DNA of 28,248 nucleotides from a virus. The translations under genes and the position numbers were made by a program. The notes beneath the pieces were generated by a model, which was not told where the DNA came from, did not search any database, and saw only the letters and a list, made by a program, of their open reading frames with translations. Location of the stretch: positions 1 through 28,248 of the IMG/VR virus record IMGVR_UViG_3300034418_000321; one strand, 5' to 3'. Below, one piece after another: positions 2,061 through 26,337 of this stretch; within the stretch, counting starts at the first letter, position 1; every line of letters begins with the position of its first letter.

Positions 2061-2191
2061 TGAGTCAGTGGCACGGAGGAAAAGGTTCTAGACGTAGGAA
2101 CCCTAACGAAAAAAAGTACCAAGAGAATTGGGACAAAATATTTAATAACAAAAAGAAAAAGGAAAAGAAAAATGAGCTTACTAAAAACTAG
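2060..2191 (+). CDS. Small basic hypothetical protein (43 aa) between nrdA and nrdB
   Basis: An ORF of 43 codons starts on the last base of the nrdA stop (TAATG) and runs 20 bases into nrdB in another frame. The product begins MSQWHGGKGSRRRNPNEKKY, continues with QENWDKIF, and ends in a lysine-rich tail. The pattern G-G-K-G-S-x-x-R followed by Y-x-x-N-W-D-x-I-F recurs, as I remember it, in short uncharacterised proteins of many phages; this is recall, not a search. It has no cysteines, membrane segment or signal peptide. Its position suggests co-translation with the RNR subunits, and its last codons contain the Shine-Dalgarno of nrdB (AAGGAAAAG), so translating it could influence NrdB synthesis. 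Function unknown; the gene itself is likely real. Confidence 0.65.
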   Translation: MSQWHGGKGSRRRNPNEKKYQENWDKIFNNKKKKEKKNELTKN

Positions 2192-4076: not shown

Positions 4077-4347
4077 TTTGTTTTTTATATGCTTCTAGTT
4101 CTGTTCTTAATATAATAACTTCTTTTTCTAATTGTATTACTTGTTCTTCTAATTTTCTTATATCAGGAAATAAATATTTATTTTGATTAGCTCTAAGGTT
4201 TTGTGTTTCTCTTAGATTAAAATCTATTCTTTCAGTTGTATGTGCATAACCCCAAACAGCTACAGCTATAACACCAATGATTTGTAAAAGATAACTAAGT
4301 GATATATTAAGACTTGATTTATCATCAACTTTAGCTATCCTAGTCAT
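4060..4347 (-). CDS. N-terminal-anchored coiled-coil protein (95 aa), i-spanin-like
   Basis: The sequence starts with a polar 13-residue head. One membrane helix follows (about 15-35, SYLLQIIGVIAVAVWGYAHT), then a charged region that becomes a heptad coiled coil over about 60-90 (IRKLEEQVIQLEKEVIILRT). This is the layout of inner-membrane spanins (Rz type), which span the periplasm and fuse inner and outer membranes in the last lysis step. It begins on the last base of the holin stop (TAATG) and overlaps the next gene. No small lipoprotein (Rz1/o-spanin) with a lipobox is visible nested inside or downstream, so the spanin assignment is inference from topology and place. Confidence 0.55.
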   Translation of the reverse strand: MTRIAKVDDKSSLNISLSYLLQIIGVIAVAVWGYAHTTERIDFNLRETQNLRANQNKYLFPDIRKLEEQVIQLEKEVIILRTELEAYKKQNANNK

Positions 4348-4718
4348 TACTTACCTACGCCTTTAATTCTTTCAAAGCTCCTCATACCACCAAGTCCTAA
4401 CATACCCATTAATACAGGTAGCATAGTAGATGTATCTGCTTGTGGTACATCAATACCAAAAGGTGCTAACAAAGGACTAATTAAAAAGTTAACTGCAAAA
4501 CCTGCAACACATACCCAAGCAGTTGCTGGTCTCCAAGATGATTGAAACCAGTTACCTTTAGCTTCTTCTCTGTTTACTTCTATTTGTGCTTTAGCAATTT
4601 CGTGTATATGTTTTTCAGACATAGTAGCAATCTCATGTGCAATCTTTTGTTTAGTGTCAGCATCAGGTATAAACTTATCTAATAGTTTACTGACCGGTTG
4701 TATTAATTTATCTATCAT
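4347..4718 (-). CDS. Holin, GTA-type 3TM family
   Basis: This is the membrane pore protein that releases the endolysin. The layout matches the 'holin of 3TMs, for gene-transfer release' family (GTA_holin_3TM). A charged amphipathic N-terminal half (about 1-55) is followed by the hallmark GNWFQSSWRPATAWVCVAGF, then NFLISPLLAPFGIDVP, then a helix TMLPVLMGMLGLGGMRSFER and a basic end. This pattern is very common in alphaproteobacterial phages and gene transfer agents. It overlaps the endolysin gene by 11 bases, the classic holin-endolysin pairing, here with the endolysin first. A good Shine-Dalgarno (TTAGGAGC) lies about 5 bases before the ATG, so this gene may be translated more strongly than its neighbours. 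Confidence 0.88.
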   Translation of the reverse strand: MIDKLIQPVSKLLDKFIPDADTKQKIAHEIATMSEKHIHEIAKAQIEVNREEAKGNWFQSSWRPATAWVCVAGFAVNFLISPLLAPFGIDVPQADTSTMLPVLMGMLGLGGMRSFERIKGVGK

Positions 4719-5169
4719 TCTTAGCTCCTAATACCATTTTTTGTAATTCAATACTTCTTCTGCCCACTTGTTTAAACCAACGACTATCTTCCATTTCAAC
4801 AGCCATCTTTTCCCAATCATGTTGTCTACAAGCTTTTAACATGTTACGAAACTTAGAAAGCTTTGAAGCTCCTAAATTAAAACACATGTTTACTAAGACT
4901 CTTTGTATAACTTCAGGTAGCTCGTCCCAGTCTTCATGACTTCCAAAGACATGTATAGCTTCCATATAGTGTTTATCAAAGTCATCATCGTAATACATAT
5001 CGACAACTTCTTGAGGTACTTTAGTTCCTACTTCCCATTTATATTCAGGGTCTTGAGGTTGGCAAAGATGTCCAACTCCTAAAGTTTTATAACCTAAACT
5101 ATCTAAATAGATTTCTAAGACTTCACCTTCGTGTCGCTTTATTTCAGCTTTACAAAGTTCTATATTCAT
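4708..5169 (-). CDS. Endolysin, T4-lysozyme-like muramidase (GH24)
   Basis: This enzyme cleaves the peptidoglycan glycan chain at lysis. The catalytic triad is visible with T4 spacing: E14 (KRHEG), D23 (IYLDSLG) and T29 (YKTLGVGHL), matching E11, D20 and T26 of T4 lysozyme. The C-terminal half also follows the fold, with VLVNMCFNLGASKLSKFRN and DSRWFKQVGRRS corresponding to the T4 FNMG and SRWYNQ regions. Its 153 residues are close to T4 lysozyme (164). There is no signal peptide or anchor helix, so export must depend on the holin. It overlaps the 1671-aa gene upstream by four bases (ATGA) and the holin downstream by 11. Confidence 0.93.
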   Translation of the reverse strand: MNIELCKAEIKRHEGEVLEIYLDSLGYKTLGVGHLCQPQDPEYKWEVGTKVPQEVVDMYYDDDFDKHYMEAIHVFGSHEDWDELPEVIQRVLVNMCFNLGASKLSKFRNMLKACRQHDWEKMAVEMEDSRWFKQVGRRSIELQKMVLGAKNDR

Positions 5170-8100
5170 TTTAATTTACCAATTATTTCTATTTCATTAT
5201 ACTTAATAAAATCTGGATTATATTCATCATATATTCCTAATCCTTTATAATCTAATTCACTTATACCTTGGGGATTTTCATTAAATTTTGTTTTTAAAAA
5301 ATCTCTTATTTCTTTAGATTTTGTTTCTAATAAATTTATAGAGTCTTCTAATCCTGTTTTATCTTCTAAGTTACGAGCATCCATTAAAGCTCTTTGCATT
5401 TCCCAGTAATCTTCTCTTGCTTGTTGTCTTTGTTTTAATTCAAATTCAGAATATTTTTCAAGCCTTTCTATGTTTCTTTTCATCATTACAAATTGTTCAG
5501 GAGGCATATATTCTACAGCTCTTTTTATATCAGGATTAATTTTTTTAAAGCTATCAGCATATGATTTTTGATAATATCCTATATCTGGTTTTTTATATCC
5601 CTCTCTTTTTTTTGCAATGTTATCGTATTCACTAATTAATTTTTCAGGTAATTCTGAAGAATTAATTCTTGCAAACATTTCACCCTCTTCTCCTGTTATA
5701 ATATAACTGTCATCTTCTTCTATTAACTTAGCTTCATCATAAGTTAAATCTTCTTCTTTTTTAATCTTATCTTTTACTTTAACTGCTGTAGGTTCAGAAG
5801 GTGGATTTTTTAAATGTTTAGGATTATTAATTTGTTCAGTCATTAACTTCATTAAATTTTTTCTACCTAACATAGATAAACCACCAAAAACAAAAGGTTC
5901 TCTATAGCTTATAAAATCATCACCAAGCCCATAACCAACTTCTTTAAAACTTCTAACTATTTTCTTAACAGTTTCATTTTGATAGCCATAATCTTTTAAA
6001 TAAGTCTCAGCTTCCTTAACAGTAATTTGTCCATCCATTAATAAATCATAAACATCTTTTGCAGATTTATTAAACTTAGATTCAGAAGCTGCTTTAGCTG
6101 ATTTAGGTTTTAAGGTTTCTAAATAGTCTGGGTTTAAATAATCTTTTCTTAATCTTTTACTACTTCTTTGTTTACCTTTAATAGTTTTAGTTAAAGCTTT
6201 TGCTAATCCACCAACTACATAAGGTTCTCTTAAACCTAAAGATTCCATTTGAGCTTTTAATGCTCTATCTTCTTCATCTTGCACAAACTCTGCTGTACTA
6301 TTAAATGGTCTTTTTGTAACTCTACTTTTCATTTCATCAGGTTCATCAGTTACATTAGATACATTTTTAACTATACCACCTTTTGAAAATAAAGGTTTAA
6401 AATCATCTTTTCTTTTTCTACCTCTTCTTGGTCCAGTAGCAAATAAATTTATATCTGGTGTTTCATCTTCAGGTAATAACCTACCTTTATCTATTTGTCT
6501 TGCTCTTTTTCTTAATTCAGCTCTAGTTCCTTCGCCAAATATTAAATCATAAGCACCATATCCCGGTAAATTTTTAGCAAGTAGTTCTGTTAAACCTTGT
6601 CTATATTGTACAGATTCCATTACATCTTGACCTATTGGACCAGATATACCTTTTAATCCACTTGCAATTAATCCATCTTTTCTAGCATTAGATTCTGATA
6701 TTCTATTTACATAGTCAAAAGGTCCATATCCACCCCAACGTCTGACACCGTCCAATATAACTCTACCTGCTGGTAAGTCTTGACCTGTTTCATAGTCTTG
6801 TAAAGATTTACCTTGGCTTCTAATTAAGTTACCAATAACTCCTACTCCTGTCATTAACATAACAGTAGGTAAAACTTTAGGTAATCCTGCTTGTAATGGG
6901 TAAGTCCTTGTTTCTCTTACAAATCTTTTTAAAACGGTATTACTAAATACTGTAGGATATCCAGCAAACTGTGTTAATAATGAACCTGATGGACTTGAAA
7001 ACCATAAAGGTCTATTAGCTTCAGCTACACTTGGATTTAAAATAACTTCTTTAGTAAATCTATTAGCACCACCTAGTACATTTCGTTTATAAAATCTTTG
7101 TTGGAATAATTGTAATTCAGCTTCTGTATCATTTTTAGGTTCAAACAATCCTTTTGCTCTAGCACTATTCATTCTACCGTCAGGATTTAAAGAATTTTTA
7201 TACCATTGCATTGCAGTAGCTTTATCAATTCCTAACTCTTGTAATTGACCTTCATAATATTCGATACGTTTTTTATCTTTAATAACTTTTGCACCAGTAG
7301 AATGATTATATAAATCTCTAATTCTATTTCTAATCATCATTTTACCAGTAGTAAATGAAGCTAATTGTACAGCTTTAGTCCACTGTGTTAATAAGTTTAC
7401 TTTAAAAAAAGCACTCTGAGCTTCTTTAACTGAAAAAACTCCAGCAAAAGTACTACCATGTAAAGCTTCACCAGCAAGACCAGCAATTCTTTCTTGAACA
7501 GATTGTTCTAAAGCTAATCCAGTTTGATAAAGTTCTTCCCATTGCCAATCGTCTAAATCTTTAAAACCTTTTTGTATTCCAGCAGCTTTTGCTTCTTCAA
7601 TAGTTTTAATTTTAGCAGTACCTATTCTTTTAATACCTTTGATACTTCTGTCTATTATATTGGCACCTTCTTTTTTCAAAGCTGTTCCAATGTTTCCTAC
7701 AGTTTCTCCTACTTCATGAGTACCTACACGACTTAAAAGAATTAAAGGTTCACTGATACTAGATAATGTAGCTAATGGAAGGTGAGCCATTTGTTGTGAA
7801 AGCTTACCCCAATCTGAAGCTGCTTTTGCAACATTACTTCTCCCAATTAAAGTATCTTTATATTGTTCAATACCTGTAACTTGTTTAAAAATAGTTCTAA
7901 TTTTATCTCCAACTTTATTACCTTCAACTCCACCACCTAATTCATCAATAATTTTAGAAACTTCTTTTTCTTCAAACTCTCTAATGTTAGCTCCAAAATA
8001 TTTTTTACGAGCCATGGTTTGTGCAATATTAGTTGTGTATTGTTCTAAGATATCTTGAACATCTCCTTCTAAAAATTCATCTAAGTCATCATCAGAAATA

Positions 8101-10181
8101 TTAGTAAATCTTCTAGGCTGCATGTAACCGTTAGAATCTCCAGCTCCTTTTTGTCTTAATTCAAAAGGAGTATATCTATACTCTAACATATCTTGTATAA
8201 TTGCATCAGACTTAAGTTCTTTAGCTTTTTGTAATTCTACATTTAATAAATCTTCAACTTTATCTGTTCTTCCACCTGAAGCTTCAAGTGCAAAATTTCT
8301 ACCAAATGAATTTACATCTGTTCCTTCATCATTATATTTACTAACTAAAAGTGGTTTACCGTCAGGACCTTTAAGCTCTTTTCCTTCTGCATCTTTAGCT
8401 TTAAACATTTGAGTTTCGTTAGTAGGGTCAGCATGTCCAGAATTAATTAAAAGTTGTTTAAACTTACTAGTTTCTCCTAATCCAAAATCTTTTTCTAAAG
8501 CAGAATAATTAAACATTCTTGGAAAATATCCAAACTTATTTAATGTTCCAGCTCTAAATAACTCTAAGTCACTTGCTTCATCATATATATCATTTAAAAG
8601 TTTTTTAACTCCAGTATATGCTAAAGCTACATCTTCATCTATTATAATACCACGATATTCTTTACCTATTAAATCTTTAACAGCATCATCGCCTTTATTA
8701 ACAAACTTTCTTCCTAAATTTTCATCTCTTAATAAAAACTTTAATTGTTCATTTTGCTCTTCAAGTAACTTACTTCTGTATCCTACACGATATAAATTGT
8801 TAAAAGCTTTACCTAGACCGTAATGAAATCTACCAAATAAACTTCCTAAATATTCTCCATAGGTAAACTCAGATGTTCCTTCAGGACCATTAGCTAATAC
8901 AGCTTGATTCTTTTTAGCTCTACCTTCTTTAAAAACTCCTTCATCATAATCATATCTTAACTTTCTTAAAAAGTTTTCTAGTGTTGGAGATTTATCTACT
9001 AATTCTAAAAACTCTGTAGTTGGTTTACCAAAAGTTTTTGCAAGTGTTGCGTTTAATCTACCTTTATTTTTTTCAGAAAGTTCTAGTTTATACTGTGATA
9101 ATTTTTTATCAACGTCTAAATATGGTTTACCTGTTTCAGGATTAATAGGAACACCGTCTTGATTTGTTTCTACAAACTTAGGGTCTATATTAAAAAATAT
9201 ATCTTCAGTTTGTTCGTCTAGTCCACTATTAAAAACAGCATCCATTTCAAATTTAGCTAGTTCTTCTTCTCTTGCACTTGGTCCTACATAATCAATACCG
9301 TCTTCATTTACAAATTTATATTCTTTATCTACAAATTTAGAATGATATTTACCACTAGCAGCACCTAAACCAGCACCTACACCACCACCAAAAAGACCAC
9401 CAACTCCTGCCATAGCAAGTACTTGACCATAATCTATATCTTCACCTAAACCTAAATTTATATCCGTGTCTTGCATAAAATAATTATGTAAGCCACCCCA
9501 TCCTAATCCTTCAGCAGCACCGTAAATTCCATAAGATTTTGCAGTTTCTTTAGTTATAGCATCTTGTAATTTAGCTTTAGTTAATCTTTTTACACCTTGT
9601 CTAGCAGCTTCACCTATAGCAGCTCTACCAGCTACTGTAGCTCCACCAGACGGTATAGCAAATAAAGCTGTTACAATGTTAAGAGGGTCCAGTAAAACGT
9701 CTCCTGCGACATCTTTAACCATTCCAAAATTTTCTTTAAAACCTCTTAACTCAGCGTTATTAAATTGGTCACGTAAATATACATAATCTTCTTTTTGCTC
9801 ATCAGTCCATTTACCTGTTTCAAAAGAACGAACTATTGCTGAACCTAAACTATAATCTGCATCTCTTAAATATTCAAATATATTTTCATTACTACCAATA
9901 CCATCTAAGAACCTATCAGCTCTTGTGGCAAATTCAGAATCTTTTTTTAAGTCACCTAAACTTTTCTTTGGAGATAATGTAGAAACTGGAGTGGTGGCTT
10001 GTTTTACAGATGCATCTAAGTCTTTTAAGTTTTGTACACCAATAGGAGTATCCTCAACTTTTTGTTGATTTATTTGCTCATAAAATTCTTTTAAAAGTTT
10101 TTGACGTAACTTTTCGGGGTCATCTTGAGTTTGCCTATCTCGCATCAATTCTTGATAGGCTTGAAGAGTATATCTAGACAT
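5166..10181 (-). CDS. Very large internal virion / DNA-ejection protein (1671 aa)
   Basis: This is the largest gene of the window. Its place among internal-protein genes and its size fit the T7 gp16-type ejection protein, although I see no clear T7 homology. Visible parts are: a charged N-terminus (1-130); a glycine-rich hydrophobic stretch at about 250-277 (VLAMAGVGGLFGGGVGAGLG); a motif I associate with marine-phage internal proteins at about 1069-1087 (FAGYPTVFSNTVLKRFVRE); and a hydrophobic helix at about 1105-1120 (LPTVMLMTGVGVIGNL). GG motifs follow at 1268-1269 (FSKGGIVKNV), 1324-1325 (REPYVVGGLAK) and 1433-1434 (REPFVFGGLSM). The last 200 residues are highly charged and helical. No polymerase, transglycosylase or other enzyme motif was found. 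It shares one base with the gene upstream (TAATG). Confidence 0.72.
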   Translation of the reverse strand: MSRYTLQAYQELMRDRQTQDDPEKLRQKLLKEFYEQINQQKVEDTPIGVQNLKDLDASVKQATTPVSTLSPKKSLGDLKKDSEFATRADRFLDGIGSNENIFEYLRDADYSLGSAIVRSFETGKWTDEQKEDYVYLRDQFNNAELRGFKENFGMVKDVAGDVLLDPLNIVTALFAIPSGGATVAGRAAIGEAARQGVKRLTKAKLQDAITKETAKSYGIYGAAEGLGWGGLHNYFMQDTDINLGLGEDIDYGQVLAMAGVGGLFGGGVGAGLGAASGKYHSKFVDKEYKFVNEDGIDYVGPSAREEELAKFEMDAVFNSGLDEQTEDIFFNIDPKFVETNQDGVPINPETGKPYLDVDKKLSQYKLELSEKNKGRLNATLAKTFGKPTTEFLELVDKSPTLENFLRKLRYDYDEGVFKEGRAKKNQAVLANGPEGTSEFTYGEYLGSLFGRFHYGLGKAFNNLYRVGYRSKLLEEQNEQLKFLLRDENLGRKFVNKGDDAVKDLIGKEYRGIIIDEDVALAYTGVKKLLNDIYDEASDLELFRAGTLNKFGYFPRMFNYSALEKDFGLGETSKFKQLLINSGHADPTNETQMFKAKDAEGKELKGPDGKPLLVSKYNDEGTDVNSFGRNFALEASGGRTDKVEDLLNVELQKAKELKSDAIIQDMLEYRYTPFELRQKGAGDSNGYMQPRRFTNISDDDLDEFLEGDVQDILEQYTTNIAQTMARKKYFGANIREFEEKEVSKIIDELGGGVEGNKVGDKIRTIFKQVTGIEQYKDTLIGRSNVAKAASDWGKLSQQMAHLPLATLSSISEPLILLSRVGTHEVGETVGNIGTALKKEGANIIDRSIKGIKRIGTAKIKTIEEAKAAGIQKGFKDLDDWQWEELYQTGLALEQSVQERIAGLAGEALHGSTFAGVFSVKEAQSAFFKVNLLTQWTKAVQLASFTTGKMMIRNRIRDLYNHSTGAKVIKDKKRIEYYEGQLQELGIDKATAMQWYKNSLNPDGRMNSARAKGLFEPKNDTEAELQLFQQRFYKRNVLGGANRFTKEVILNPSVAEANRPLWFSSPSGSLLTQFAGYPTVFSNTVLKRFVRETRTYPLQAGLPKVLPTVMLMTGVGVIGNLIRSQGKSLQDYETGQDLPAGRVILDGVRRWGGYGPFDYVNRISESNARKDGLIASGLKGISGPIGQDVMESVQYRQGLTELLAKNLPGYGAYDLIFGEGTRAELRKRARQIDKGRLLPEDETPDINLFATGPRRGRKRKDDFKPLFSKGGIVKNVSNVTDEPDEMKSRVTKRPFNSTAEFVQDEEDRALKAQMESLGLREPYVVGGLAKALTKTIKGKQRSSKRLRKDYLNPDYLETLKPKSAKAASESKFNKSAKDVYDLLMDGQITVKEAETYLKDYGYQNETVKKIVRSFKEVGYGLGDDFISYREPFVFGGLSMLGRKNLMKLMTEQINNPKHLKNPPSEPTAVKVKDKIKKEEDLTYDEAKLIEEDDSYIITGEEGEMFARINSSELPEKLISEYDNIAKKREGYKKPDIGYYQKSYADSFKKINPDIKRAVEYMPPEQFVMMKRNIERLEKYSEFELKQRQQAREDYWEMQRALMDARNLEDKTGLEDSINLLETKSKEIRDFLKTKFNENPQGISELDYKGLGIYDEYNPDFIKYNEIEIIGKLK

Positions 10182-12637
10182 TAAACGTTATCTCTTATAA
10201 ATTCTGCAAATCTTTTAGCTCTTTCTGGAGTTTGTTCTTTTGCCCATACAGAATCTAAAGCTTCTGCATAAGCTTTTTCACCGTCACCTTCTTCAAAAGC
10301 TTTCCACATTTTTTTGAAATCGTCTCCTCTTGCTTTACCTAATTGATAATAGAAAGAAGATACCATAGTTACTATTTCTTTATTATCTAAAAGGTCTGGT
10401 CTTACATCTTGTAATTTTGTTACAGCATCATTGTTTGCAATTTTAGCATCTTTAATTAACCAACTTTTTACAACATCAACTGGAACTTCATATCCTTCTT
10501 GATATTGTTCATCTTTATTAACCCATTGAAGATTACCATCATTATCTCTAAACTGTAATGCATGTCCTACACCAGCAGTTAAAATACCTAAACTATCTTT
10601 ATATACTTTAGTATTTTGAGGTCCTATTCCACCTTTTCTTTTACCAAGACCTTCTTCTTCGTATATTAATGTAACTAAACCCGGTAGTTTTTCATATATT
10701 GCTTCAGGTTCTTTTGTTATTTGTTCTTGAAAGACTTTAAATTTAGCATCTTCTATTTGTTCTGTAGGAGCATTCTCTTCTTTTAAATTTGCTAATTCTA
10801 TTTTTGCTTCAACAAGACTTTTATCTGTTCGTTGTGAAATATCTTTAGAAGTTTCTAAAACATCTAAAATAGTTTTTCCAACTGCTTGTGAAGTACTTGG
10901 AGTTCCTAATATATTTCTACCTACTTTAAATAATGAACTTGTTGCAATATCTCCTAAATCTTTACCTTTTAAAGCTGCATAGTCTTCAGGATTTAGATTA
11001 TCAGGATGTCTTACATTTGAAAATAAATCTTCAATTAAAATATCTTTTTTTCTATCTGATAATTGTGAAGTAACAATATTATTATAGTGTGAATCAAATA
11101 CAGTTATTTTATTTTTTCTATCTAATTTTTCCCAGTTTTCATCTTCAGAATATCCACCTGTTTTTGATTCAGAAGGTGTGTTAATACCTTCGTTTAACAT
11201 ACTCGGCAACATACCTGAAAATCTATCATAAGAATAACCTTTTTCAATTCTTCCTACAATACCTGTTCCATCATATTGTTCTGAACCTCTTTCATACCAT
11301 GCTTTTTCTACTTTAAAACCTTCACCAGATGTAACCATTACAGCAAAATTTCTTTTATAAACATCATCGTTCATAAAACTTCTAAATTCTTTTAATGTTT
11401 CTTCTGATGCTGTCTTGCCATATAGCTTTTCATATTTTGCTTCATAGATAGATTGAGCTAATTCAGGTTTCATATCCATTAATTTTTCAATAGCTAATGT
11501 ATCTCTAATGAATGCTTTACTTTGAATAGCATCTTGACTTATATCTTCCCAAAAATCATCAAACCTTCCTTTCTTACCACTCATTCTAAGTAATTCAGCA
11601 GTAGGAGTTTTTTCATTATATTTTACTCTAGTATTTTGGTCGTTACTAAAATTTTGTACAAATACTGAAACACTTTCTTGACCTGAAACATCTTCATTTG
11701 CTTGAAGTACTGCATCTCTTTCTGAACCTTTTAGTTCTGCCATATACTTTTGAATAGATGTTGTCATAGTAGCAGTAATATCTAAATCAGTTATTACATC
11801 ATCTATTCTACCATATACATCTTCAGGATTAATTTTTCTAAACAAATTAATTCTTCCATTTTCTTCTTGCTTACGTCCAATTTTTTGAAAAGCATGTTTA
11901 AAACCTTCAAAGACTCCAACGTTTCTGTACTTTTGTTTTTCTCTATTAAATACAGCTCTTTCTAATTTTGTTAATTCATGAGGAGTTAAAGACATAGCAT
12001 TTTCTAATAACTCAGCTCTTGACATAAACTCTTCTTTTGGTACACCATATAATTTTCTTAACTCAGTATCAAATTGTTGATATCTATTATTTTCTAAAAA
12101 ATGTCTTATTATATTTCTAACAGCAGTATTTTTTGCTCCTCGATATAATGGTTTATTAGATTTAAAAGTTGAAAAGTCATCAAAAATATTAGCTTGTTCT
12201 ATAACTTTATCTAAAGGTAATTTTAATGTTTGTTCTAATGTATCTTTGTATGGACTATTATATAACGCTTCTGTTCTTTCATCTAAAGACATAGTAGCCC
12301 ATTCTCTATTAGGACCTGCTAGTTCTTTTATTTTATCTTCATCAAAAATATTTAAAACATTAGCCATTCCTTGAATTCTTCCAGCTTGAGCTTCATTATT
12401 AGATAGTTCAAATATTTGTTTTTCTTCAATTTCTTTTTCTCTTTTATTATATGCACCTTTAAATAACTGTTGACCTACACCTATTACAGCAAGAGCTTGT
12501 CCAATTCTTTTAGACTTTTTAGCTTCTTTAGCTCTTTTTTGATTTATTTCAGCTTGTCTAGATAATAAAGATGAACCAAGTTCTTCTATACTTTTATCAC
12601 CATAGTTTGCAAATATGTCACTAAAATCTTCTGCCAT
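10181..12637 (-). CDS. Internal virion protein with C-terminal GH24 muramidase domain (818 aa)
   Basis: It is probably a virion-borne protein that opens a local hole in the cell wall at infection. The N-terminus (about 30-75) has a strongly basic helix, a short hydrophobic patch (IGQALAVIGVGQQLF) and an acidic coil. The middle is helical and unassigned. The last ~170 residues look like a T4-type lysozyme: E662 (IYEEEG), D681 (VYKDS) and T687 (ILTAGVGH), followed by VSSFYYQLGKAR as the FN-x-G-like region. The D-to-T spacing is canonical. The E-to-D spacing is enlarged by about ten residues (GKRKGGIGPQN). A clear Shine-Dalgarno (GAGGAAAA) precedes the ATG. It lies beside the 1671-aa gene, as expected for an ejection complex with a wall hydrolase. 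Confidence 0.78.
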   Translation of the reverse strand: MAEDFSDIFANYGDKSIEELGSSLLSRQAEINQKRAKEAKKSKRIGQALAVIGVGQQLFKGAYNKREKEIEEKQIFELSNNEAQAGRIQGMANVLNIFDEDKIKELAGPNREWATMSLDERTEALYNSPYKDTLEQTLKLPLDKVIEQANIFDDFSTFKSNKPLYRGAKNTAVRNIIRHFLENNRYQQFDTELRKLYGVPKEEFMSRAELLENAMSLTPHELTKLERAVFNREKQKYRNVGVFEGFKHAFQKIGRKQEENGRINLFRKINPEDVYGRIDDVITDLDITATMTTSIQKYMAELKGSERDAVLQANEDVSGQESVSVFVQNFSNDQNTRVKYNEKTPTAELLRMSGKKGRFDDFWEDISQDAIQSKAFIRDTLAIEKLMDMKPELAQSIYEAKYEKLYGKTASEETLKEFRSFMNDDVYKRNFAVMVTSGEGFKVEKAWYERGSEQYDGTGIVGRIEKGYSYDRFSGMLPSMLNEGINTPSESKTGGYSEDENWEKLDRKNKITVFDSHYNNIVTSQLSDRKKDILIEDLFSNVRHPDNLNPEDYAALKGKDLGDIATSSLFKVGRNILGTPSTSQAVGKTILDVLETSKDISQRTDKSLVEAKIELANLKEENAPTEQIEDAKFKVFQEQITKEPEAIYEKLPGLVTLIYEEEGLGKRKGGIGPQNTKVYKDSLGILTAGVGHALQFRDNDGNLQWVNKDEQYQEGYEVPVDVVKSWLIKDAKIANNDAVTKLQDVRPDLLDNKEIVTMVSSFYYQLGKARGDDFKKMWKAFEEGDGEKAYAEALDSVWAKEQTPERAKRFAEFIRDNV

Positions 12638-12638
12638 T

Positions 12639-13232
12639 TTATTTTCCTCTTTCTAATAAACTTTCTCTAGGTTCTACTTTTGGTTTTTGTAATATACTTT
12701 CTGTTAATTTTTTTGTATCTAATGTTTCTAATTGTTTTTTAATTTCTGGACCTACTGAAGCTTCTTGAATATTTTTAACTTTAGCATCTTGAAATCTTCC
12801 GCCTTTACCAATAAATGATTTAGCTTCTTCTACAAGTTCTGGAGAAGTTTCATCTTCCTCTTCTAAACTTCCATCACTTTCAATTACAGGCTCTACTCCT
12901 GCTCTTTCAGCAATAGCCATAAGCATATACATAGTAGGCTCTAAAAGATTTAACATCATGTCAGGATTAAATTTACCTTTATTAAATCCTTCTTTTAAAA
13001 CAACCTGACTAATAGCATTTACAGGTATACCATTAGACATTAAATCTATTACACCTTTTAATCTTGAAGGTTCTAATAAATCTAAAAATATTTTTTCTCT
13101 AGCTGCTTTAACAGAAGTAAATTCTGGAGAAGATTCCCAAGGATATTTTTGGTCGGGAGCATTTGTCAAAGACTGTCCTGCAATTGGTTTTTCAAATAAA
13201 ACTTCTTGTAATGATTCTGGTGTACCTGCCAT
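12639..13232 (-). CDS. Conserved structural/internal virion protein candidate (197 aa)
   Basis: This is a soluble, helical protein without recognised enzyme motifs. The segment PIAGQSLTNAPDQKYPWE (about 16-33), followed by a helical region with GVIDLMSNGIPVNAIS and DMMLNLLEPTMYMLMAIAER, recalls small proteins found beside internal-virion genes of marine T7-like phages, where a GQSLT-x-x-P-x-x-x-x-W-E start is typical in my memory. A very acidic linker (about 118-135) precedes a KGGRF motif (K143-G144-G145). It sits one base before the 818-aa gene and has a good Shine-Dalgarno (AGAGGAA). A role in the ejection apparatus is inferred from place only. Confidence 0.6.
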   Translation of the reverse strand: MAGTPESLQEVLFEKPIAGQSLTNAPDQKYPWESSPEFTSVKAAREKIFLDLLEPSRLKGVIDLMSNGIPVNAISQVVLKEGFNKGKFNPDMMLNLLEPTMYMLMAIAERAGVEPVIESDGSLEEEDETSPELVEEAKSFIGKGGRFQDAKVKNIQEASVGPEIKKQLETLDTKKLTESILQKPKVEPRESLLERGK

Positions 13233-13242
13233 GATATTCCTC

Positions 13243-14103
13243 TTATCCTAAAATTAATCCGTAAGCATTGTTTAAATTATACATATCTTCATCGCTTGGA
13301 TTAGGGTTGTTAAAATCTATATAACTAGTAGCAGGGTCTTGTTGTCTTACTAATGCTTGTTGTCCGAAGTCTGAAAAATATTCTCTTTGATATTCTTTAG
13401 CTTGGGCTATAGCAAACTTTTCAGCTTCATCAGTAGCTACAAGTTCTGCTCCTACTTTTTTAAGAGGTGCTACTCCTTTAAAAGCTGCGTACTCAGCACT
13501 ACCTCTTAACTTACCCATAGCTGTATAAGCTTCTCCTGTTTTAGGGTCAATCTCACCTTTAACAGAATCAAGAACAGAAGGTTTATCCACAGTGAACATT
13601 CTCTCACCTCTAGCTTTAGCTGCTTCTACAAAAGATTCTGGTTTAGCAGCAGTAGCTACAGTTTCACCCATTGCTTCTGGAGTTGCTTGTAGTTGCATAG
13701 TTCCTGCCTCTACATCTGTTGGTTTAACAAATCCATTAGTAACTTCACTTACAAAGTTTTGAAAGTTAGAACCTACTTCTGGTCTATTAAATAAACCACC
13801 TACTTTATTCATTCCTGCACCTATTGCATCAGTAACTCTAGTAAATATTCTACTAGCACCTTCTCCAATAAATCCAGCAGCATTTTGAATACCTGTAGCT
13901 ATAGTTCCTAAAACTCCAGTTTGTCCTGCAAGTTGACCTATCCATCCTCCTATACCCGGAATAATAAAAGATAAAGCAATAGAACCTAAAGGACCTAATT
14001 TACCAAAAGCTCTAGCAATTTTTCCTAAACCTTTTTTAAATTTTTTACCTATGCTCTTAATACCCCTACCTATTTTTTTACCTATCTTTCTTAATTTTCC
14101 CAT
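13243..14103 (-). CDS. Virion protein with cationic amphipathic N-terminus (286 aa), membrane-active candidate
   Basis: The first 35 residues hold 14 Lys/Arg, and there is no acidic residue before position 81. They begin MGKLRKIGKKIGRGIKSIGK. Hydrophobic residues at 4, 7, 11, 15, 18, 22, 26, 29 and 33 fall on one helix face with 3-4-4 spacing. A glycine-rich hydrophobic stretch (about 36-75, LGSIALSFIIPGIGGWIGQL) follows, then a soluble mixed C-terminal part ending NLNNAYGLILG. This resembles membrane-binding peptides fused to a virion domain and suits a protein that inserts into the host inner membrane during DNA entry. The family is not recognised. AGGA lies seven bases before the ATG. Neighbours are the 794-aa repeat protein and the 197-aa protein. 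Confidence 0.65.
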   Translation of the reverse strand: MGKLRKIGKKIGRGIKSIGKKFKKGLGKIARAFGKLGPLGSIALSFIIPGIGGWIGQLAGQTGVLGTIATGIQNAAGFIGEGASRIFTRVTDAIGAGMNKVGGLFNRPEVGSNFQNFVSEVTNGFVKPTDVEAGTMQLQATPEAMGETVATAAKPESFVEAAKARGERMFTVDKPSVLDSVKGEIDPKTGEAYTAMGKLRGSAEYAAFKGVAPLKKVGAELVATDEAEKFAIAQAKEYQREYFSDFGQQALVRQQDPATSYIDFNNPNPSDEDMYNLNNAYGLILG

Positions 14104-14120
14104 AATAAAATCCTAATTAA

Positions 14121-16505
14121 TTATCCGTCTAACCAACCATCTAAAATACTTGTAATAGATTGTAAACTATCATCCCATACATCTTGTTTACCTACACCTG
14201 CTTCATTACCTAAAGCAGCTATAAGTAAAGATGCTTTACGTTGTTGGTCATTATCCCATCTTTTAAATTCAAAATCTGCTTCATCTCTTAATTCTTGCCA
14301 TAAAAAATTATTTGCTGCTGCTGTTAATTGGAATGCATTCTGTGCATTTTTTTGAGCAATAGCATTTTCAGCAGCAGTATCAGCAGTATTAGCTTTACGT
14401 CTCCATTCTACATTAGACTGTGCAATAGCTGTTGCATTTTGAACATTGAATTGTTCTCTTGCAAATTCTTGTTGAGCAGTAAACTTTTCAACATCTGTTT
14501 GTAATTGTGCTTCAATTATTTCTGCTTGTGCTTCTCTATTAGCTCTTCTAGCTTCAGCAGCATTTTCTTGTTGAGCATTAAACTGATTCATAGCATTTAA
14601 TTGACTAGCATTGTATTGCTCATTTTGTTGTTTAATACTTTCCATGAACTGATTAACTTGATTCTGACTTGTAGCATTAAATTGTGCAGCAGCATTTTCA
14701 GCAGATTGATTAGAGAGTAATCTTTGTTGTATCTGCTGAGCTTTTAACATACTTGCTTGTTGCTTATTATTTAAATTAGCCATATCCATTTGCAAAAATG
14801 CTTGAGCATTAGTAATTGCTAATTTAGTATTTTGGTCAGCTTCTGCTAAATTCATTTGTGACATTATAATAGCATCTTGCATTACAGCTTGTTGAGAAGC
14901 AGTTGCATTTTGTAAACTTGCAGTCTGTAAAAACTTAGAATTATTTATAGCTCTTTGTTGGTCAGCACTAAACTGAGCCATATCCATTTGAAATACATTT
15001 TGTGCATTAAACATAGCTGTCTGTTGTGCCATCTCTGCATTTTTTAATGCAGCAGTAGCTTCAATAGATTTCTGTTGTGACACACTAGCTTGGATAGCTT
15101 GTGCATTACTTTGAGCTATTGGTAAAGCAGAAGTCATAATAGCATTTAACAATGCATCTCTACCTACTGTAGAAGCTGACATACCTCTTTGTGCTAACAT
15201 AGCTTCAACACTAGCAACAGCCGGTCTAGCCCATATAGGTATTTCACCATTTTCCATACCTTCTAACAAACCGTTTATCTGTGTAGATACTAAAGCCTCT
15301 TCAGGTAATCCTTCTATAATACCTCTTTGTTCTTCAGTAAAATCAGTTAGTCTAGCTTCTAAGTCTTCAGGGTCATTACCAATTTCTGCAATTTCATCTT
15401 CACTTAAACCTGCATTTCTTAATTGTTTTTTAGCTCTAGTAATTTTAGCTAATGAAGTACCGGCTACTTTAGCTGCTTGAATTTTAACTTCTTTACTAAT
15501 AGTTCCTACAACTCTTTCTTGTAATGCACCGGGGATAACTTCAACTTCAGCAGCATCAATAGGAGCAACTTTTTCAATACCAGCAGCTTTAGCTAATGTT
15601 TCAGAAACTTCAGGAGATACGCTACCAGAAGCAGCTTCAACTACAGCATCTTCAGGAACTTTAGAAATATCTTCATCGCCTAACTTAGCTGCTGCAAAAG
15701 GCTCTGGAGCTTTAGCAGTTGCTACATCATTAATAATAGAAACTTGTTCTGGAGACACAGCACCAACTGTAGCAGCTTCAGCTTCTTTAGTAGCTTTCAT
15801 TTGTAATTTACCAGCTTCTTCTGGAGTTATTTCTGTATCTGTTCTATCAATTTTTCTAGGGTCAGGTATTGTTGGAATATCTTCTGGCATAACACCTTGA
15901 GCCATTTGTTGAGCTTGTTCTGCTGTTTCTAAGATTCTAGTTTTTCTATCAGATTGAAACTTAGTTTCTTTTTGTTCATCTGTTAATTCAATATCACCTA
16001 CAATATCATCAGTAGTTGTATTTGTATCTGTACTTGCTCGTTGATTTGTATTTACATATGTAAAACCATCCCATGCATAAATAAATCCTTGTCTTACTAC
16101 TGTAGCTTGACCATTTGGAGGGTCTTTAGGCTCATTACGTTCATCTCCAATTCTTTCGTCTTCTACATTTTTTACTGACATAGAAGGTTTAACCTCGCCT
16201 TCTCTACCTATAAAAGTTTGGTCAGAGCCTTTACCAGTTGTTGGAGCTTGTTTAAATGTAGGCTGTACAGGTTTAGTTCCTGTTACAGGAGGAACATTTT
16301 TAGGTGTAACTGCAGGTTGAACAGTAGGTCTAACCTCTTCTTCTCTTTCTATAGACATAGGAGGTTTTTTAGGTTCTACTGGAGCTTTTTGCATACCACC
16401 TACTTGAGCTTTTACTCTACCACCTTTAGACATATCTAACCTATTAGCAGTAACATACTTACCTTGATATTTTTTTACTCTTTTCTTTTGTTGTTTCTTT
16501 TTCAT
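14121..16505 (-). CDS. Internal virion protein candidate with long eleven-residue-repeat helix (794 aa)
   Basis: Three regions can be seen. Residues 1-40 are very basic (MKKKQQKKRVKK) with two GG motifs (MSKGGRVKAQVGG). Residues about 41-200 are proline/threonine/charge-rich and probably disordered, and about 200-460 are Ala/Glu-rich and helical. From about 467 to 763 the chain is an unbroken array of eleven-residue repeats rich in N, A, Q and M, predicted to be one extremely long helix or coiled coil. It ends with LDGWLDG. There is no enzyme motif. Its position between the fibre genes and the other internal proteins, and its length, suit an ejection-conduit or periplasm-spanning role, which is inference. 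The Shine-Dalgarno is weak (AGG six bases before the ATG). Confidence 0.65.
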   Translation of the reverse strand: MKKKQQKKRVKKYQGKYVTANRLDMSKGGRVKAQVGGMQKAPVEPKKPPMSIEREEEVRPTVQPAVTPKNVPPVTGTKPVQPTFKQAPTTGKGSDQTFIGREGEVKPSMSVKNVEDERIGDERNEPKDPPNGQATVVRQGFIYAWDGFTYVNTNQRASTDTNTTTDDIVGDIELTDEQKETKFQSDRKTRILETAEQAQQMAQGVMPEDIPTIPDPRKIDRTDTEITPEEAGKLQMKATKEAEAATVGAVSPEQVSIINDVATAKAPEPFAAAKLGDEDISKVPEDAVVEAASGSVSPEVSETLAKAAGIEKVAPIDAAEVEVIPGALQERVVGTISKEVKIQAAKVAGTSLAKITRAKKQLRNAGLSEDEIAEIGNDPEDLEARLTDFTEEQRGIIEGLPEEALVSTQINGLLEGMENGEIPIWARPAVASVEAMLAQRGMSASTVGRDALLNAIMTSALPIAQSNAQAIQASVSQQKSIEATAALKNAEMAQQTAMFNAQNVFQMDMAQFSADQQRAINNSKFLQTASLQNATASQQAVMQDAIIMSQMNLAEADQNTKLAITNAQAFLQMDMANLNNKQQASMLKAQQIQQRLLSNQSAENAAAQFNATSQNQVNQFMESIKQQNEQYNASQLNAMNQFNAQQENAAEARRANREAQAEIIEAQLQTDVEKFTAQQEFAREQFNVQNATAIAQSNVEWRRKANTADTAAENAIAQKNAQNAFQLTAAANNFLWQELRDEADFEFKRWDNDQQRKASLLIAALGNEAGVGKQDVWDDSLQSITSILDGWLDG
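14217..15107 (-). repeat. Array of 27 eleven-residue (hendecad) protein repeats, also readable as 22-residue units
   Basis: Residues 467-763 of the 794-aa protein divide without gaps into 27 units of eleven residues, for example NAQNVFQMDMA, QFSADQQRAIN, NAQAFLQMDMA, NATSQNQVNQF and NASQLNAMNQF. The first position is Asn in 14 of 27 units and the second is Ala in 16 of 27. The last position is often Phe or another hydrophobic residue. Two near-identical units (NAQNVFQMDMA and NAQAFLQMDMA) lie 66 residues apart, exactly six units. DNA-level identity between units is low, so the repeat is old and kept at the protein level. Confidence 0.85.
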
Positions 16506-17139: not shown

Positions 17140-18624
17140 TTATGAGTTTTTCAACTCGTTAATTTCAGATTGTAAGGCATCAATCTGTGCTTGTTGTTCT
17201 TGTATAGCTTTGACAAGTAATGGTGTGATTCTTCCATAGTCCATGCCCTGCATATCTTCACCATCTTTTTCACCTGTTACTGCATCTGGAAATACCTCTT
17301 GTGCTTCATGTGCTATAAATCCTTCGCTTGATTTACCATTCTCTTTCCAATCAAATTTAACTGGTTTTAGATTGTTAAGTCTTTCTAAACCATTTTCTAA
17401 AGGTTGAATATTTTCTTTTAATCTATAATCAGATGAAGTATTGTAAGTTACTGAACCAGTTGTAGAATAGACTGTTCCTGAAGTACCATTATTTGTTCTA
17501 AATTCTAAAATAGTTCCAGAAGAGCCTTTTCTATTAAGATAAAGAGGGATAGATTCAGAAGTTGAATAAATAGTATCACTTCTAAGCTCAACTCCTACAG
17601 TTGCTATACCAGTAGAAGTCTTAGCCACCAACAAGGTGCCTGAAGAATCAATACGCATTCTTTCTGAACTGTTGGACATAAATTTTACAGGATGTGCATT
17701 TGTTGTCCCAATAACAATTCCTGCTGCTGTATCATACGACCTTACAAAAGCATTATTAGCATCTGAGCCAATATTAAGTCTTGCTCCTGACGTATTCCCT
17801 ATACCACTAATTTCAACCTCACCATTTGACTGAATACGCATTCTTTCTGAACTGTTTGTAACAATTCTTGCTACATTACTTGCACCTAATATATTAAAGC
17901 TGTTTGTTCCACCTATAGAGCCATCATCATCTCCAAACCAAACAGCATCAAGGTCACCACCTATTAATGCAGTTTTACCACCTGAATAACCTTTAAATTT
18001 AGCACCTATAAAACTAGTACCACCAAAGGTTTCTAGAACTGCACTAGGACTAGTCGTTCCAATTCCAACGTTGCCACCTGGCGTAATAGCCATTCTCTCA
18101 GATGTACCACTAAAAAAAGCCAGTCTACCTGTAGACACATTTTCTCGTTTAATATCCCAGTAATTAGTTCCAGTGCCATTAAAACCAATACGAATACCAC
18201 CATAAGATGCTGTATTATAAAAATAACCATCACCACCATTTACTTCTAACTTTGCAGTAGGACTAACAGTTCCAATTCCAACATTGCCTGATGCATCAAT
18301 ACGCATTCTTTCTAAGCCTGTCGTAGCAAATTGCATACTGTCATTTGTGTGGACATATACGACATAGCCTCTATACCTATTGTCCCCTGATGTACCGTCT
18401 GCAAAATGAATACGACTTGTGCTTGACGTTCCAGAATTGATAGTTAGACCACTATCTCCAGTTCCAGAAAGAACTAAATTAGTTGCTCCGGAGTAGTAGC
18501 TACTAGGACTACTCGTTCCAATTCCAACATTTTCACTACTATCAATAGTTATAGCTGTAGCATTACTATTATCTACAATTCCGGGAGTGCTTGATAACTC
18601 TACTGGGATTTTTGTATTTGCCAT
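17140..18624 (-). CDS. Tail fibre protein with S74 intramolecular chaperone, third of three (494 aa)
   Basis: A host-binding fibre or spike subunit. After a short start with NATAITIDSSENVGIGTSSP it holds several copies of the unit (S/T)-S-E-R-M-R-I-x-S-x-G-N-V-G-I-G-T, a triple-beta-helix style typical of marine phage fibres. The last ~97 residues are an S74 peptidase/chaperone domain: SDYRLKENI with S398 and K403 as the self-cleavage dyad, then GFIAHEAQEVFPDAVTGEKD and a C-terminal trimer coiled coil (QIDALQSEINELKNS). The chaperone trimerises the fibre and is then cut off. AGGAGA precedes the ATG. It shares a 61-base exact DNA repeat with the 536-aa fibre gene. Confidence 0.85.
   Translation of the reverse strand: MANTKIPVELSSTPGIVDNSNATAITIDSSENVGIGTSSPSSYYSGATNLVLSGTGDSGLTINSGTSSTSRIHFADGTSGDNRYRGYVVYVHTNDSMQFATTGLERMRIDASGNVGIGTVSPTAKLEVNGGDGYFYNTASYGGIRIGFNGTGTNYWDIKRENVSTGRLAFFSGTSERMAITPGGNVGIGTTSPSAVLETFGGTSFIGAKFKGYSGGKTALIGGDLDAVWFGDDDGSIGGTNSFNILGASNVARIVTNSSERMRIQSNGEVEISGIGNTSGARLNIGSDANNAFVRSYDTAAGIVIGTTNAHPVKFMSNSSERMRIDSSGTLLVAKTSTGIATVGVELRSDTIYSTSESIPLYLNRKGSSGTILEFRTNNGTSGTVYSTTGSVTYNTSSDYRLKENIQPLENGLERLNNLKPVKFDWKENGKSSEGFIAHEAQEVFPDAVTGEKDGEDMQGMDYGRITPLLVKAIQEQQAQIDALQSEINELKNS
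18505..18565 (-). repeat. 61-bp exact repeat, copy A (other copy at 23837-23897)
   Basis: These 61 bases near the 5' end of the 494-aa fibre gene are identical to 23837-23897 near the 5' end of the 536-aa fibre gene. They encode NATAITIDSSENVGIGTSSP. No synonymous change separates the copies, although flanking sequence differs, which implies recent duplication or ongoing recombination. Confidence 0.95.
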
Positions 18625-18635
18625 TATTTATTCTC

Positions 18636-21600
18636 CTATATTGCTGCAATAATAAATGCTAGAAGTTCGCTATAACGTACTCCTAGTCTTGTTTGTTCTA
18701 CTCCGTCATCATCAGTCCAAGTGCTGCTAATAAACATAGCATAGTCACCTGCATCTAATCCTTCAGCAGTAAAAGCATCTTGTAAGTCTTGAGCTATGAT
18801 TCCAAAATGGGTTCTAGCTTCATCACCTTTTTCTTCAACAGAATCTATCCACCTGAACTTTCTTAATAATCCTTTAGCTGCAACAGCTACTCTAGTTTCT
18901 GCATCTGTTAAAGCTTCTATATCTTGTTTTTCGTTTCTGTCTGAGGTATTAATTGTTCCGTTAGTTGCGTATATGTCATCAAATCTAGCAGAAGAAAATC
19001 CTAAATCAACAGCATTATCTCTTGAAGAATTTGTGCTTAAATTCCAAGGATATATTGAAGCTACAGTTTTATTAAAAATTAAACCAGTATCATTATTACC
19101 TACCGTTATATGTCCACTTGCAGTACCAATACTTCCAACTGTTGAGGTGTCTTTTTTAAAGTTTATTATTTCTCCGTCATTAGTATTCCTACGCAAGTAC
19201 AAAGGTGTATCACCTGCTGAAGTTATTGTTGTAAGGTTTGGTCTTATTTCAGTTCCTGCAACAGAGGCATTAAGACCAGTCTTACCCACCAACAAGTTGC
19301 CTGAAGAGTCAATACGCATGGCTTCTGTTGTAGTTGTAGTAACATCTCCTGAACTACCTCTTGTACCAAATACTAAAGCACCTTGACTGTTACTACCTGT
19401 TCTAGTAAAACCAATAGTCCCACCAGCATAGGCTTGACCATCACCTGATTCAGAAAATAGTATTTGTGGACCTTGTCCATTTGTTGCACTATCGCCTATT
19501 AAAGCAATATGTGAATTTACAGTTCCAGTTGTACTTGCACTTTCTACTACAAGTTTATGACTACCACTTGCAGTTCCTGTTGTACCAATATTTACATTGC
19601 CTGAAGAATCAATACGCATGGCTTCTGCTACGTTAGTACTAAATCGCAATTCACGTAATCCATACAAATCAACACCTGCATCATCAAAACCATCTGCATT
19701 GTATGTAGCTATTGTCATTCCTCTAGTTGAGTTTGAACCTGTAAAATGAGCTATGTTTGAGTTAGCAGTTCCTGACTGTACATCTAAAGGTTTTGCAGGA
19801 CTAGTCGTTCCAATTCCAACTCTATTATTTGTAGAATCTATATAAAGCGTATCAGTATCAAAATAGAAATCACCACTTGCAATCTTTGCAGGTGTTATAG
19901 TCCCATCAACAGGAACATTAACACTTGTCTGTGTATGTGTAATAGCTTCTACAGCTACACCACTTGGAGGTGCTGTTGTAAAAGTTAATGTAGTTCCTGA
20001 AATACTATAATTACTTTTAGCCTGATAAACACCATCAAAGTATACTTGTATATTATTTACGCTTACAGGAGCTACAGATAGTGTTAAAGTTGTATCACTA
20101 CCATCACCTGTCATGCTATCAACAATCATGTTAGCACCGCTTACACTGCTTCTTACATGATACACTGTAATAACTCTACCACTCACCGGAGCTGTAGAGA
20201 ATGTTAAAGTTGTACCTGAAACACTGTAGCTATCTTGTGCTTGGAATACACCGTCTATAAAGACAAGTAAATTATTTTCAGTAGCTGCTGCAGTTGTTAA
20301 AGTAAAGTCTGTCTGACTTCCTGTACCTGCAAATATTTGTTGCTCTACTGCTGAAGCTCCACCAGAACCTGCAATAGAACCCCACTCATCTGTAAAACCT
20401 TCAAACTGTCCTAAGTCTGAATTATATCTAAAGTAACCTGCTGCACCTGTTGGTCTTTGTGCTGTAGTACCAACTGGCATATGTATAGCATCTGTAGAAC
20501 TACCTATGTCTAAAGTAACATCTGGAGTTGCATTAAGTATACCAACTCTGTTATTTGTAGAGTCTACTTTTAAAGTGCTTGTATCGACTGTAAGGTCTCC
20601 AGAGACTGTTAAAGAACCTAAAGTACCTACAGAAGTTATTTGTGTTTGAGCTGCATCAACTGATAAAGTATCTGTACTTAATGTTAAACCTGTACCTGCT
20701 GTTAATAAAGTTTTAGAAACTTCAATAGAGCCATCTAGTTGTGCATTAGTTATAGTTCCTGTTAAAGAACTTGTCGGGTAATTTGTTGCATCACTAAGGT
20801 CAAAAGCTGGTGTAGCATCTGAAGCACCTAGTGCTAAACTTACACCACCGTATGAAACTGTAGAGTTTGTAAGTGAACTATTAGCAATGTTACTTAAAGT
20901 ATTTGAAGCAGCATCTATAGTTTTATTTGTTAAAGTCTGTGTACCTGTAAGAGTTGCAACAGTTGAATCAATTGCAAGTGTTACTGCATTACCTGTAGCA
21001 GAACTATCAAGACCTGTACCACCTGCAATAGTTAATGTTTCACTATCTAAATCTATAGCTATCGTGCCACTATCTGTTGTAATGTCTAAGTCTTCTGCAG
21101 TAATCTGTGTATCTACATAATCTTTTACTGCTGCTGAAGTTGGTAAACTTGTATCGTTATCGTTAGAACCTATACCTTCTGACTCTAATACAATTGCAGA
21201 AGCTTTAAAATTATCTACTTCAATATTTGATACAGTGTTATTATCAACATCTATTGTTTTGTTTGTAAGTGTATCTGTTGTAGCTCTACCAACTAAAGTA
21301 TCTGTTGAAGTTGGTAAAGTAATTGTACCAGTATTAGATATAGAACTAATAACTGGAGTTGTTAATGTTTTGTTTGTTAAAGTTTGTGTGCCAGTCAATG
21401 TAGCAACTGTAGAGTCTATATTAACTGTAATAGTATTACCTGAACCTACAGTATCTAAACCTGTCCCTCCAGCGATTGTAAGGCTTTCTGAGTCGAGGTC
21501 AATACTTAAAGCACCTCCGGTATCACCTTGGAAATCTAAGTCCTGTGCGGTCACCTGAGAGTCTACATAAGCTTTTACAGATTGTTGAGTTGGTACAAGT

Positions 21601-25569: not shown

Positions 25570-26337
25570 TTAAAAGTATCTTCTATCGTCTGTCATATAC
25601 TTTGGAGCTGGATTCATAAGATTAGATTTCATATACTTCATTCCTCTCTTATAATCATCCAATGCGAAAGCTGCTTGTTGTGGGCTTTCTTTAAACTGCC
25701 AAACATAGTAACGAACTCTAGCTGTTATTACATTACTGTATTGCTCTGGTAAAGTAATTGCATCATCATATAATGATAAAGCAGTCGGTCTTACGAAAGC
25801 ATAAAAGTGTATGTTATAAACTTTGTCAGGTATTGGACTTAATCCAAACTTTCTATTATCTGGAGACTTAATTACAAATTTAGGTTCTCCATGATTTTGA
25901 GTATCTGCATCATCTGCATTCTCACTATCTCTATAGTATCTTTTCCAATCATCAAGTGTAAGAAATCTTAAACCTTTTGAAACGTAAGGAGATGTTTCTC
26001 CACTTACATTAATTGTAGTTACATAAAAATCATCCCAATCGATTGATGCGTAGTCTGTAGTGATACTAGAACTATCAGACTTTAACGTATACCATCTTTG
26101 TCCTGCTACTGTAGGTACTGTTACATTACCGTAGAATGGGTCAGTAGCTCCACTAACGTTAGCAGCAAAGAAAGGTAGTTGTGGCTCTTCATTAGCTATA
26201 TCAAATATAGATTTGTTTACAGCATCTTTAACAAACTTTTGAAGACCTATAGCGTTTGCAAAGTTTGCAGACGTTAATGGAATCTCGTTAAGTTCTCTTA
26301 ATACTTCGTTAGTTATGTCAAGATATGTATTAGCCAT
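25570..26337 (-). CDS. Head-to-tail adaptor / tail tubular protein A-like (255 aa)
   Basis: An N-terminal helical part (TYLDITNEVLRELNEIPLTS, then a helix with KFVKDAVNKSIFDIANE) is followed by a beta-rich middle and a helical C-terminus (NVITARVRYYVWQFKESPQQ, then AAFALDDYKRGMKYMKSNLM). This helix-beta-helix order and about 200-260 residues are typical of gp11-like (T7) or gp4-like (P22) adaptors that join portal to nozzle. LSPIPDKVYNIHFYAFVRP is typical of this family in podoviruses. It is placed just after the coat-protein block and before the nozzle-type gene, as expected. AAAGG lies about 11 bases before the ATG. Confidence 0.75.
   Translation of the reverse strand: MANTYLDITNEVLRELNEIPLTSANFANAIGLQKFVKDAVNKSIFDIANEEPQLPFFAANVSGATDPFYGNVTVPTVAGQRWYTLKSDSSSITTDYASIDWDDFYVTTINVSGETSPYVSKGLRFLTLDDWKRYYRDSENADDADTQNHGEPKFVIKSPDNRKFGLSPIPDKVYNIHFYAFVRPTALSLYDDAITLPEQYSNVITARVRYYVWQFKESPQQAAFALDDYKRGMKYMKSNLMNPAPKYMTDDRRYF

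Follow-up and report, generated by a model that had tools for sequence, protein, structure and literature searches.

A proline-free hendecad array that varies in length by whole units in podoviral proteins, and its possible role in DNA ejection

What is a long run of 11-residue repeats (hendecads) doing in a protein encoded among the ejection-type genes of a virus, and how much of it is one helix? The question is raised by IMG/VR record IMGVR_UViG_3300034418_000321, whose 28,248 bp we call the window. It contains a P22-like coat gene, an SU10-type adaptor, tail-fibre-like genes and an ejection-type gene block (minus strand), and is a fragment of an HMO-2011-type podovirus. Podoviruses of this type are short-tailed ocean viruses and form an abundant group. 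An earlier note on the same DNA had read the repeats as one straight helix of about 44 nm, serving perhaps as a trans-envelope conduit or as a measuring rod.

The hendecad array and its protein family

The protein that carries the repeats has the following parts:

14121..16505, minus strand: hendecad protein of 794 aa, an ORF with homologs in cultured phages, IMG/VR and MAG contigs
15309..16505, minus strand: variable N-terminal region, residues 1-399, Pro/Gly-rich and of unequal length between relatives, with MSKGGRV at about residue 26
15108..15308, minus strand: conserved N-cap block, residues 400-466, with invariant or near-invariant columns, a landmark in the length test
14367..15107, minus strand: hendecad array, residues 467 to about 713, comprising 22-23 Pro-free units, defined by register scan, lag test and positional profile
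14646..14717, minus strand: central motif within the array, residues 597-620, LLSNQSAENAAAQFNATSQNQVNQF, at a distance from each cap that is fixed modulo 11
14226..14447, minus strand: conserved C-terminal block (NVxWRR...FLWQELRD), residues 687-760, the second landmark block

Homologs of this protein are present in 26 cultured-phage records, in many IMG/VR contigs and at five loci on MAG contigs. The nearest cultured relatives are HMO-2011-type podoviruses, and further off are phages of Vibrio, Aeromonas, Pseudoalteromonas and rhizobia. Every annotated relative is called a 'hypothetical protein', the window protein has no family match in Pfam or PHROG, and a sequence-profile search of the PDB with it found nothing relevant. 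Alignment and HMM landmarks place in its single ORF an N-cap block (consensus EALVSxQxxxLLxGxExGxIPxWAxxAVxxVxxxLAxRGxSASxxG...SAxPIAQ), an in-phase hendecad array and a C-terminal NVxWRR...LW block, and it belongs to the family of HMO-2011-type podovirus hendecad proteins (HMO-2011 gp25, CHOED_013 and others). The MAG homologs lie on short contigs binned with Maricaulis (L119, L121 and L123) or Campylobacteraceae (L120 and L122), and are probably phage contigs in these bins rather than prophages. A further match, in a Planctomycetota MAG (L124), is short and weak.

The earlier note described an unbroken array of 27 units at residues 467-763 of the 794-aa ORF (15107-14217), in which 14 units have Asn at position 1 and 16 have Ala at position 2. 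The position and both counts are exact, and the periodicity is above chance: self-identity at lags of 11, 22 and 33 residues gives z = 4.1, 4.1 and 5.8 relative to composition shuffles, and Gln recurs with a strong period of 3.67 residues (power 16.5, against a maximum of 8.6 in 300 shuffles). We scanned the register in 33-residue stretches, using an 11-position profile made from the homologs with the window's own cluster left out. Between residue 458 and about 721, no stretch scored better in another register than in the expected one, whose lead was usually >20 bits, but from about residue 710 to 763 the hendecad profile score is near or below zero. The claim of an unbroken array therefore stands for units 1 to about 22-23, which are in phase, and falls for the last 4-5 units, which misfit the profile. 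Residues ~710-763 belong instead to a distinct conserved C-terminal block, also predicted to be helical, and the block at 687-760 takes in most of the final units that had been counted.

Whole-hendecad variation in length

The inter-block distance, measured from the N-cap (which ends at residue 466) to the NVxWRR block (which starts at residue 687), is exactly divisible by 11 in all but one of the 110 homologs, with 13 different lengths ranging from 132 to 517 residues. Of the 110, 105 are distinct homologs, 104 of them in phase, at distances of 132, 143, 154, 165, 198, 209, 220, 264, 286, 297, 407 and 517 residues; the remaining five, from MAG contigs, have distances of 220, 231, 297, 407 and 407. 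Assuming net length changes that are random modulo 11, and treating distinct lengths as independent, we estimate the chance of finding twelve further distinct in-phase lengths to be approximately 3e-13. The sole out-of-phase homolog (L080, 3146-5224) has a distance of 216 residues, four short, with the change near the start of the array, as if one hendecad had been shortened to a heptad. A change from hendecad to heptad is the one that a coiled coil tolerates best.

Each side of the array obeys the same rule. Leaving aside phiM6 and CRP-212, in which the central LSNQ...QFNA motif has no score, the arm on the N side of this motif is 46, 68, 90, 123, 134, 145, 189, 200, 310 or 420 residues long, and the arm on the C side is 64, 75, 97, 108 or 119 residues; the only arm out of phase is the N-arm of L080 (119 residues). 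The N-terminal regions of these proteins behave differently: just 2.3% of the gaps there have a length divisible by 11. We used landmark distances rather than pairwise gap statistics within the array, which were dropped as unreliable because the repeats can be aligned in a shifted register.

This phase rule for the inter-block distance is new here. Lengths range four-fold, yet 109 of 110 relatives keep the helical phase; this is a strong and simple constraint, from which one would expect the protein to tolerate changes of 11 residues and not changes of 3-5.

The long length classes are spaced by exactly 110 residues, or 10 hendecads: 297 (L014, L028 and L029), 407 (L011 and others) and 517 (L098 and L103). 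A lag of 110 is also the top self-similarity lag in two 517-residue arrays, at a weak 0.26-0.27, hinting at an old duplication of 10 units.

Could the array be a by-product, without structural meaning, of Ala/Gln/Asn-rich low complexity and slippage of 33-bp DNA repeats? Ala, Gln and Asn together make up about half of the array, a strong bias in composition, but the periodicity is lost in shuffles that preserve this composition, and neither the indels in the N-terminal regions nor the phase kept in the array would be expected from such a process. Tandem Repeats Finder detected no 33-bp DNA array in the window's array, nor in a 517-residue array, so the array repeats at the protein level only and recent slippage is not its cause. 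We regard this explanation as extremely improbable. The units could have been made by old repeat recombination, with their phase kept since then.

The idea of a measuring rod is weakened by two observations. Among phages that infect the same host strain, FZCC0040, the inter-block length is 198 residues in CRP-207 and 143 in CRP-212 and CRP-235 (phages on Pelagibacter have lengths of 143 and 297), so a strict envelope ruler is unlikely. Secondly, arrays of 407-517 residues would measure ~70-86 nm as a single helix, which is beyond the envelope's need, and the longest of them would exceed the 65-nm head of a relative, Slicky (PMC10507051). The protein may therefore be folded while in the head and straighten only afterwards, as T7 gp15 is known to do (PMC8954989); if not, the longest forms must be something other than a single straight helix. 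Natural length variants, even among phages of one host strain, allow tests of what sets the length of a conduit.

Helix, seams and gene neighborhood

Proline is absent from the arrays, with none among 26,488 residues in 103 arrays, whereas the N-terminal regions of the same proteins have 7.1% Pro (and 8.2% Gly). AlphaFold2 predicts helices at residues 449-520, 558-609, 614-725 and 729-767 in a full-length model, and at 449-530, 558-608 and 614-767 (window numbering) in a C-terminal construct. The family-wide phase locking, the lack of proline and this helical secondary structure agree with the hendecad helix of the earlier note. Its single helix of 44 nm is not established, because the models are low-confidence monomers (mean pLDDT 61-62, and low over most of residues 1-399) with breaks near residues 513-557 and 610-613; they show no compact bundle, and equally fall short of proving one continuous helix. 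Foldseek searches found no significant match in the PDB and only four among viral models, three of which are nameless and the fourth is a DUF4214 protein; the low confidence of the model keeps their TM-scores low. We considered a transmembrane C-terminal tail and did not adopt it, the hydrophobicity there being modest (KD19 ≤1.37 in relatives and 0.61 in the window).

In a positional profile of 522 units from 25 sequence clusters, charged residues are concentrated at positions 5 and 9, and Gln at 3, 6 and 7. The Gln direction (193 degrees) and the charged direction (37 degrees) are on opposite faces of the helix. Hydrophobic residues form two seams, at positions 2/10 and 4/8/11, which are separated by about 165 degrees on the amide side, and hydrophobicity is correspondingly bifacial (second harmonic 0.083, versus 0.011 for the first). 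Seams at this angle would fit helices arranged in a large ring or in a sheet.

The bifacial helix also suits sheets or bundles, and the hendecad region could fold back on itself in the virion, giving at least two antiparallel helices (a hairpin or bundle), in which case a straight rod overstates its length. The low-confidence breaks in the models and the excessive length of the longest arrays as straight rods in a head are consistent with this. The N-arm and the C-arm, however, change in length separately (46-420 and 64-119 residues), so that a symmetric hairpin at the central motif is excluded, and the array is free of Pro. Overall we think folding back quite unlikely, and it may be true of the pre-ejection state only.

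The hendecad gene heads the ejection-type block, after the tail fibre genes, and the order is similar in cultured relatives. Its neighbors in the block, and the adaptor gene, are:

13243..14103, minus strand: 286-aa protein with a basic N terminus and a Gly-rich hydrophobic stretch (KD19 maximum 1.46)
12639..13232, minus strand: 197-aa protein, conserved in order across relatives (synteny)
10181..12637, minus strand: 818-aa protein with a match to internal virion lysozyme (phrog_2083, E 3.8e-6, residues 677-812)
5166..10181, minus strand: 1671-aa giant virion/ejection-type protein (phrog_7348, endolysin, E 5e-39; phrog_6958, virion structural protein, 4e-10)
25570..26337, minus strand: SU10-type adaptor (PF24175, 52 bits, cut-off 27)

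Thus the location among ejection-type genes that the earlier note assumed is upheld, both by the lysozyme-family match downstream and by the gene order kept across the family. The SU10-type adaptor marks a short-tailed virion. Judging from its sequence, the 286-aa protein is a candidate membrane-contacting ejection protein, and a LysM domain at the N terminus of the CRP-235 homolog suggests contact with peptidoglycan.

Three homologs (CRP-738, CRP-235 and CRP-212) have a Peptidase_S74 domain at the C terminus, which the window protein lacks, and mainly through this domain they match a PHROG named DNA ejection protein (phrog_4287). A trimeric coiled-coil tail needle or fibre, folded in some relatives with the aid of this endosialidase-type chaperone, is therefore another candidate, and S74 is present in the window's tail-fibre-like proteins as well. 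On the other hand, S74 is also found in podoviral proteins whose annotation is DNA ejection or injection, and the hendecad gene heads an ejection-type block. A trimeric or tetrameric coiled coil requires a single hydrophobic stripe. The wheel has two seams and no single core stripe, and we judge a needle or fibre to be improbable.

The three neighboring tail-fibre-like genes that bear S74 (17140-18624, 18636-22343 and 22343-23953) all contain ERMRIDSSGNVGIGT-like repeats, and two have a similar N terminus, suggesting duplication of a fibre gene. A KGG[RI]-type motif recurs in the ejection block (MSKGGRV, GKGGRF, SKGGIV and RKGGIG, plus VVGGL/VFGGL), at residue 26 of the hendecad protein (14121-16505), residue 143 of the 197-aa protein (12639-13232), residues 1267, 1324 and 1433 of the giant protein (5166-10181) and residue 668 of the 818-aa protein (10181-12637). 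Of 109 hendecad homologs, 34 have a KGG[RKIL][VI]-like motif in their N-terminal 80 residues. The recurrence may be due to chance, or may reflect a signal for docking or processing that the proteins share. The ejection block is followed immediately by a lysis cassette (4347-5169), in which a GTA_holin_3TM-type holin (PF11351) adjoins a phage lysozyme (PF00959). The window also encodes the large and small chains of a class I-type ribonucleotide reductase (165-3146; PF02867/PF00317 and PF00268), unlike HMO-2011, which in the corresponding place has a reductase annotated as adenosylcobalamin-dependent.

A possible ejection conduit and known systems

The closest likeness in design is to protein H of phiX174, a decameric alpha-helical tube that starts with three hendecads and whose lumen is lined mainly by Asn, Gln and Arg (PMC7354561). 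Scored against the family profile, the H hendecads give +11.3 in one register and ≤ -10.7 in the other ten; for these three hendecads only, the fit has p = 0.0003 by residue shuffle and a marginal p = 0.03 by the stricter column permutation. In the fitting register, the two Gln positions common to all three H hendecads coincide with positions 3 and 7 of the array. Both proteins thus have hendecad helices with Gln on one face and hydrophobic flanks, and there is a functional analogy in that H is delivered along with the genome. They differ in that phiX174 is a tail-less ssDNA phage, that H has only three hendecads followed by heptads, and that H has Lys at one seam position where the array has Ala, Met or Val. 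The resemblance is one of design and not of homology. The suggestion of a trans-envelope conduit gains some support from the bifacial wheel and from this amide face, in the one register that fits.

Our preferred reading, to which we would give about an even chance, is that the hendecad protein is an ejected internal virion protein of HMO-2011-type podoviruses whose helices pack into a tube-like bundle that guides DNA. What the sequences themselves show is the family, the array, the phase rule, the lack of proline, the bifacial wheel and the gene neighborhood, whereas we infer the protein's location in the virion, its ejection, its oligomerisation, tube formation and a Gln-lined lumen. Each copy would have a Pro-free alpha-helical rod of in-phase hendecads spanning from the N-cap domain to the C-terminal block. 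The protein would be stored in the head, and several copies would leave through the portal and tail ahead of the DNA, packing side by side by means of the two hydrophobic seams. The Gln face (3/7) would then look one way, plausibly into the lumen, with the charged face (5/9) looking the opposite way. The resulting tube or tube-like bundle would extend the short tail and guide DNA across the envelope, as the H tube of phiX174 does. We propose that the rod changes length almost only by whole hendecads because any other step would rotate part of it out of register with the adjacent rods. That dsDNA podoviruses of the HMO-2011 group have, specifically, a phiX174-H-like, Gln-lined conduit tuned in whole hendecads, with 12 to 47 units between the caps, is a tentative idea on the doubtful side.

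A helical trans-periplasmic tunnel is already known from T7, where it is made by gp14, gp15 and gp16 (PMC8954989). The T7 ejectosome is encoded by the same kind of cassette: a lysozyme/transglycosylase and a giant protein are among the internal proteins whose genes lie beside the tail genes. P22, whose coat family is matched weakly by the window coat, provides ejection proteins from a phage with a similar coat type. The hendecad protein has no sequence homology to either set that hhalign and HMM comparisons could detect: there is no profile similarity to T7 gp14 or gp15, no match to T7 gp16 (compared with the N-cap profile only) and no profile match to P22 gp7, gp16 or gp20. Salmonella phage 7-11 gp20 likewise has no significant profile similarity to it, and no array turned up when the P22 and 7-11 proteins and the window's other ejection proteins were scanned for hendecads. 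Ejection proteins of the phiEco32/7-11 type (phrog_4287) have the C-terminal S74 in common with some family members; the match is mainly to S74, and the rest is without significant similarity.

Tape measure proteins of long-tailed phages are the precedent for growth by 11-residue units, which are duplicated and lost in them (Belcaid et al. 2011, PMC3271669). Like the hendecad protein, they are virion proteins whose length is set by a variable number of such units; unlike it, they belong to long tails and carry Trp/Phe markers, and their repeat consensus is unlike that of the array. The unit-wise variation is found in 109 of 110 homologs, but a long tail that scales with the protein is not, the adaptor being of SU10 type and the RCA phages of this group short-tailed (PMC6918029). 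The precedent raises the alternative of a scaffold or tape-like rod inside the virion, stacked on the portal or lying along the DNA axis, that sets a spacing in the head or the tail channel and does not itself conduct DNA; the weak structural matches, none significant, include tape measure proteins. With short tails, however, there is no tube to measure, arrays differ two-fold in length (143-297 residues) at similar genome sizes (53-55 kb), and the longest array exceeds the head diameter if it is a single straight helix. We consider such a rod unlikely.

Precedents therefore exist both for growth by 11-residue units, in long-tailed phages, and for helical trans-periplasmic tunnels, in T7. If HMO-2011-type podoviruses do build a phiX174-H-like, Gln-lined conduit tuned in whole hendecads, then the pilot tubes of microviruses, tape measure proteins and the ejectosomes of podoviruses would be linked by a solution that is either convergent or shared.
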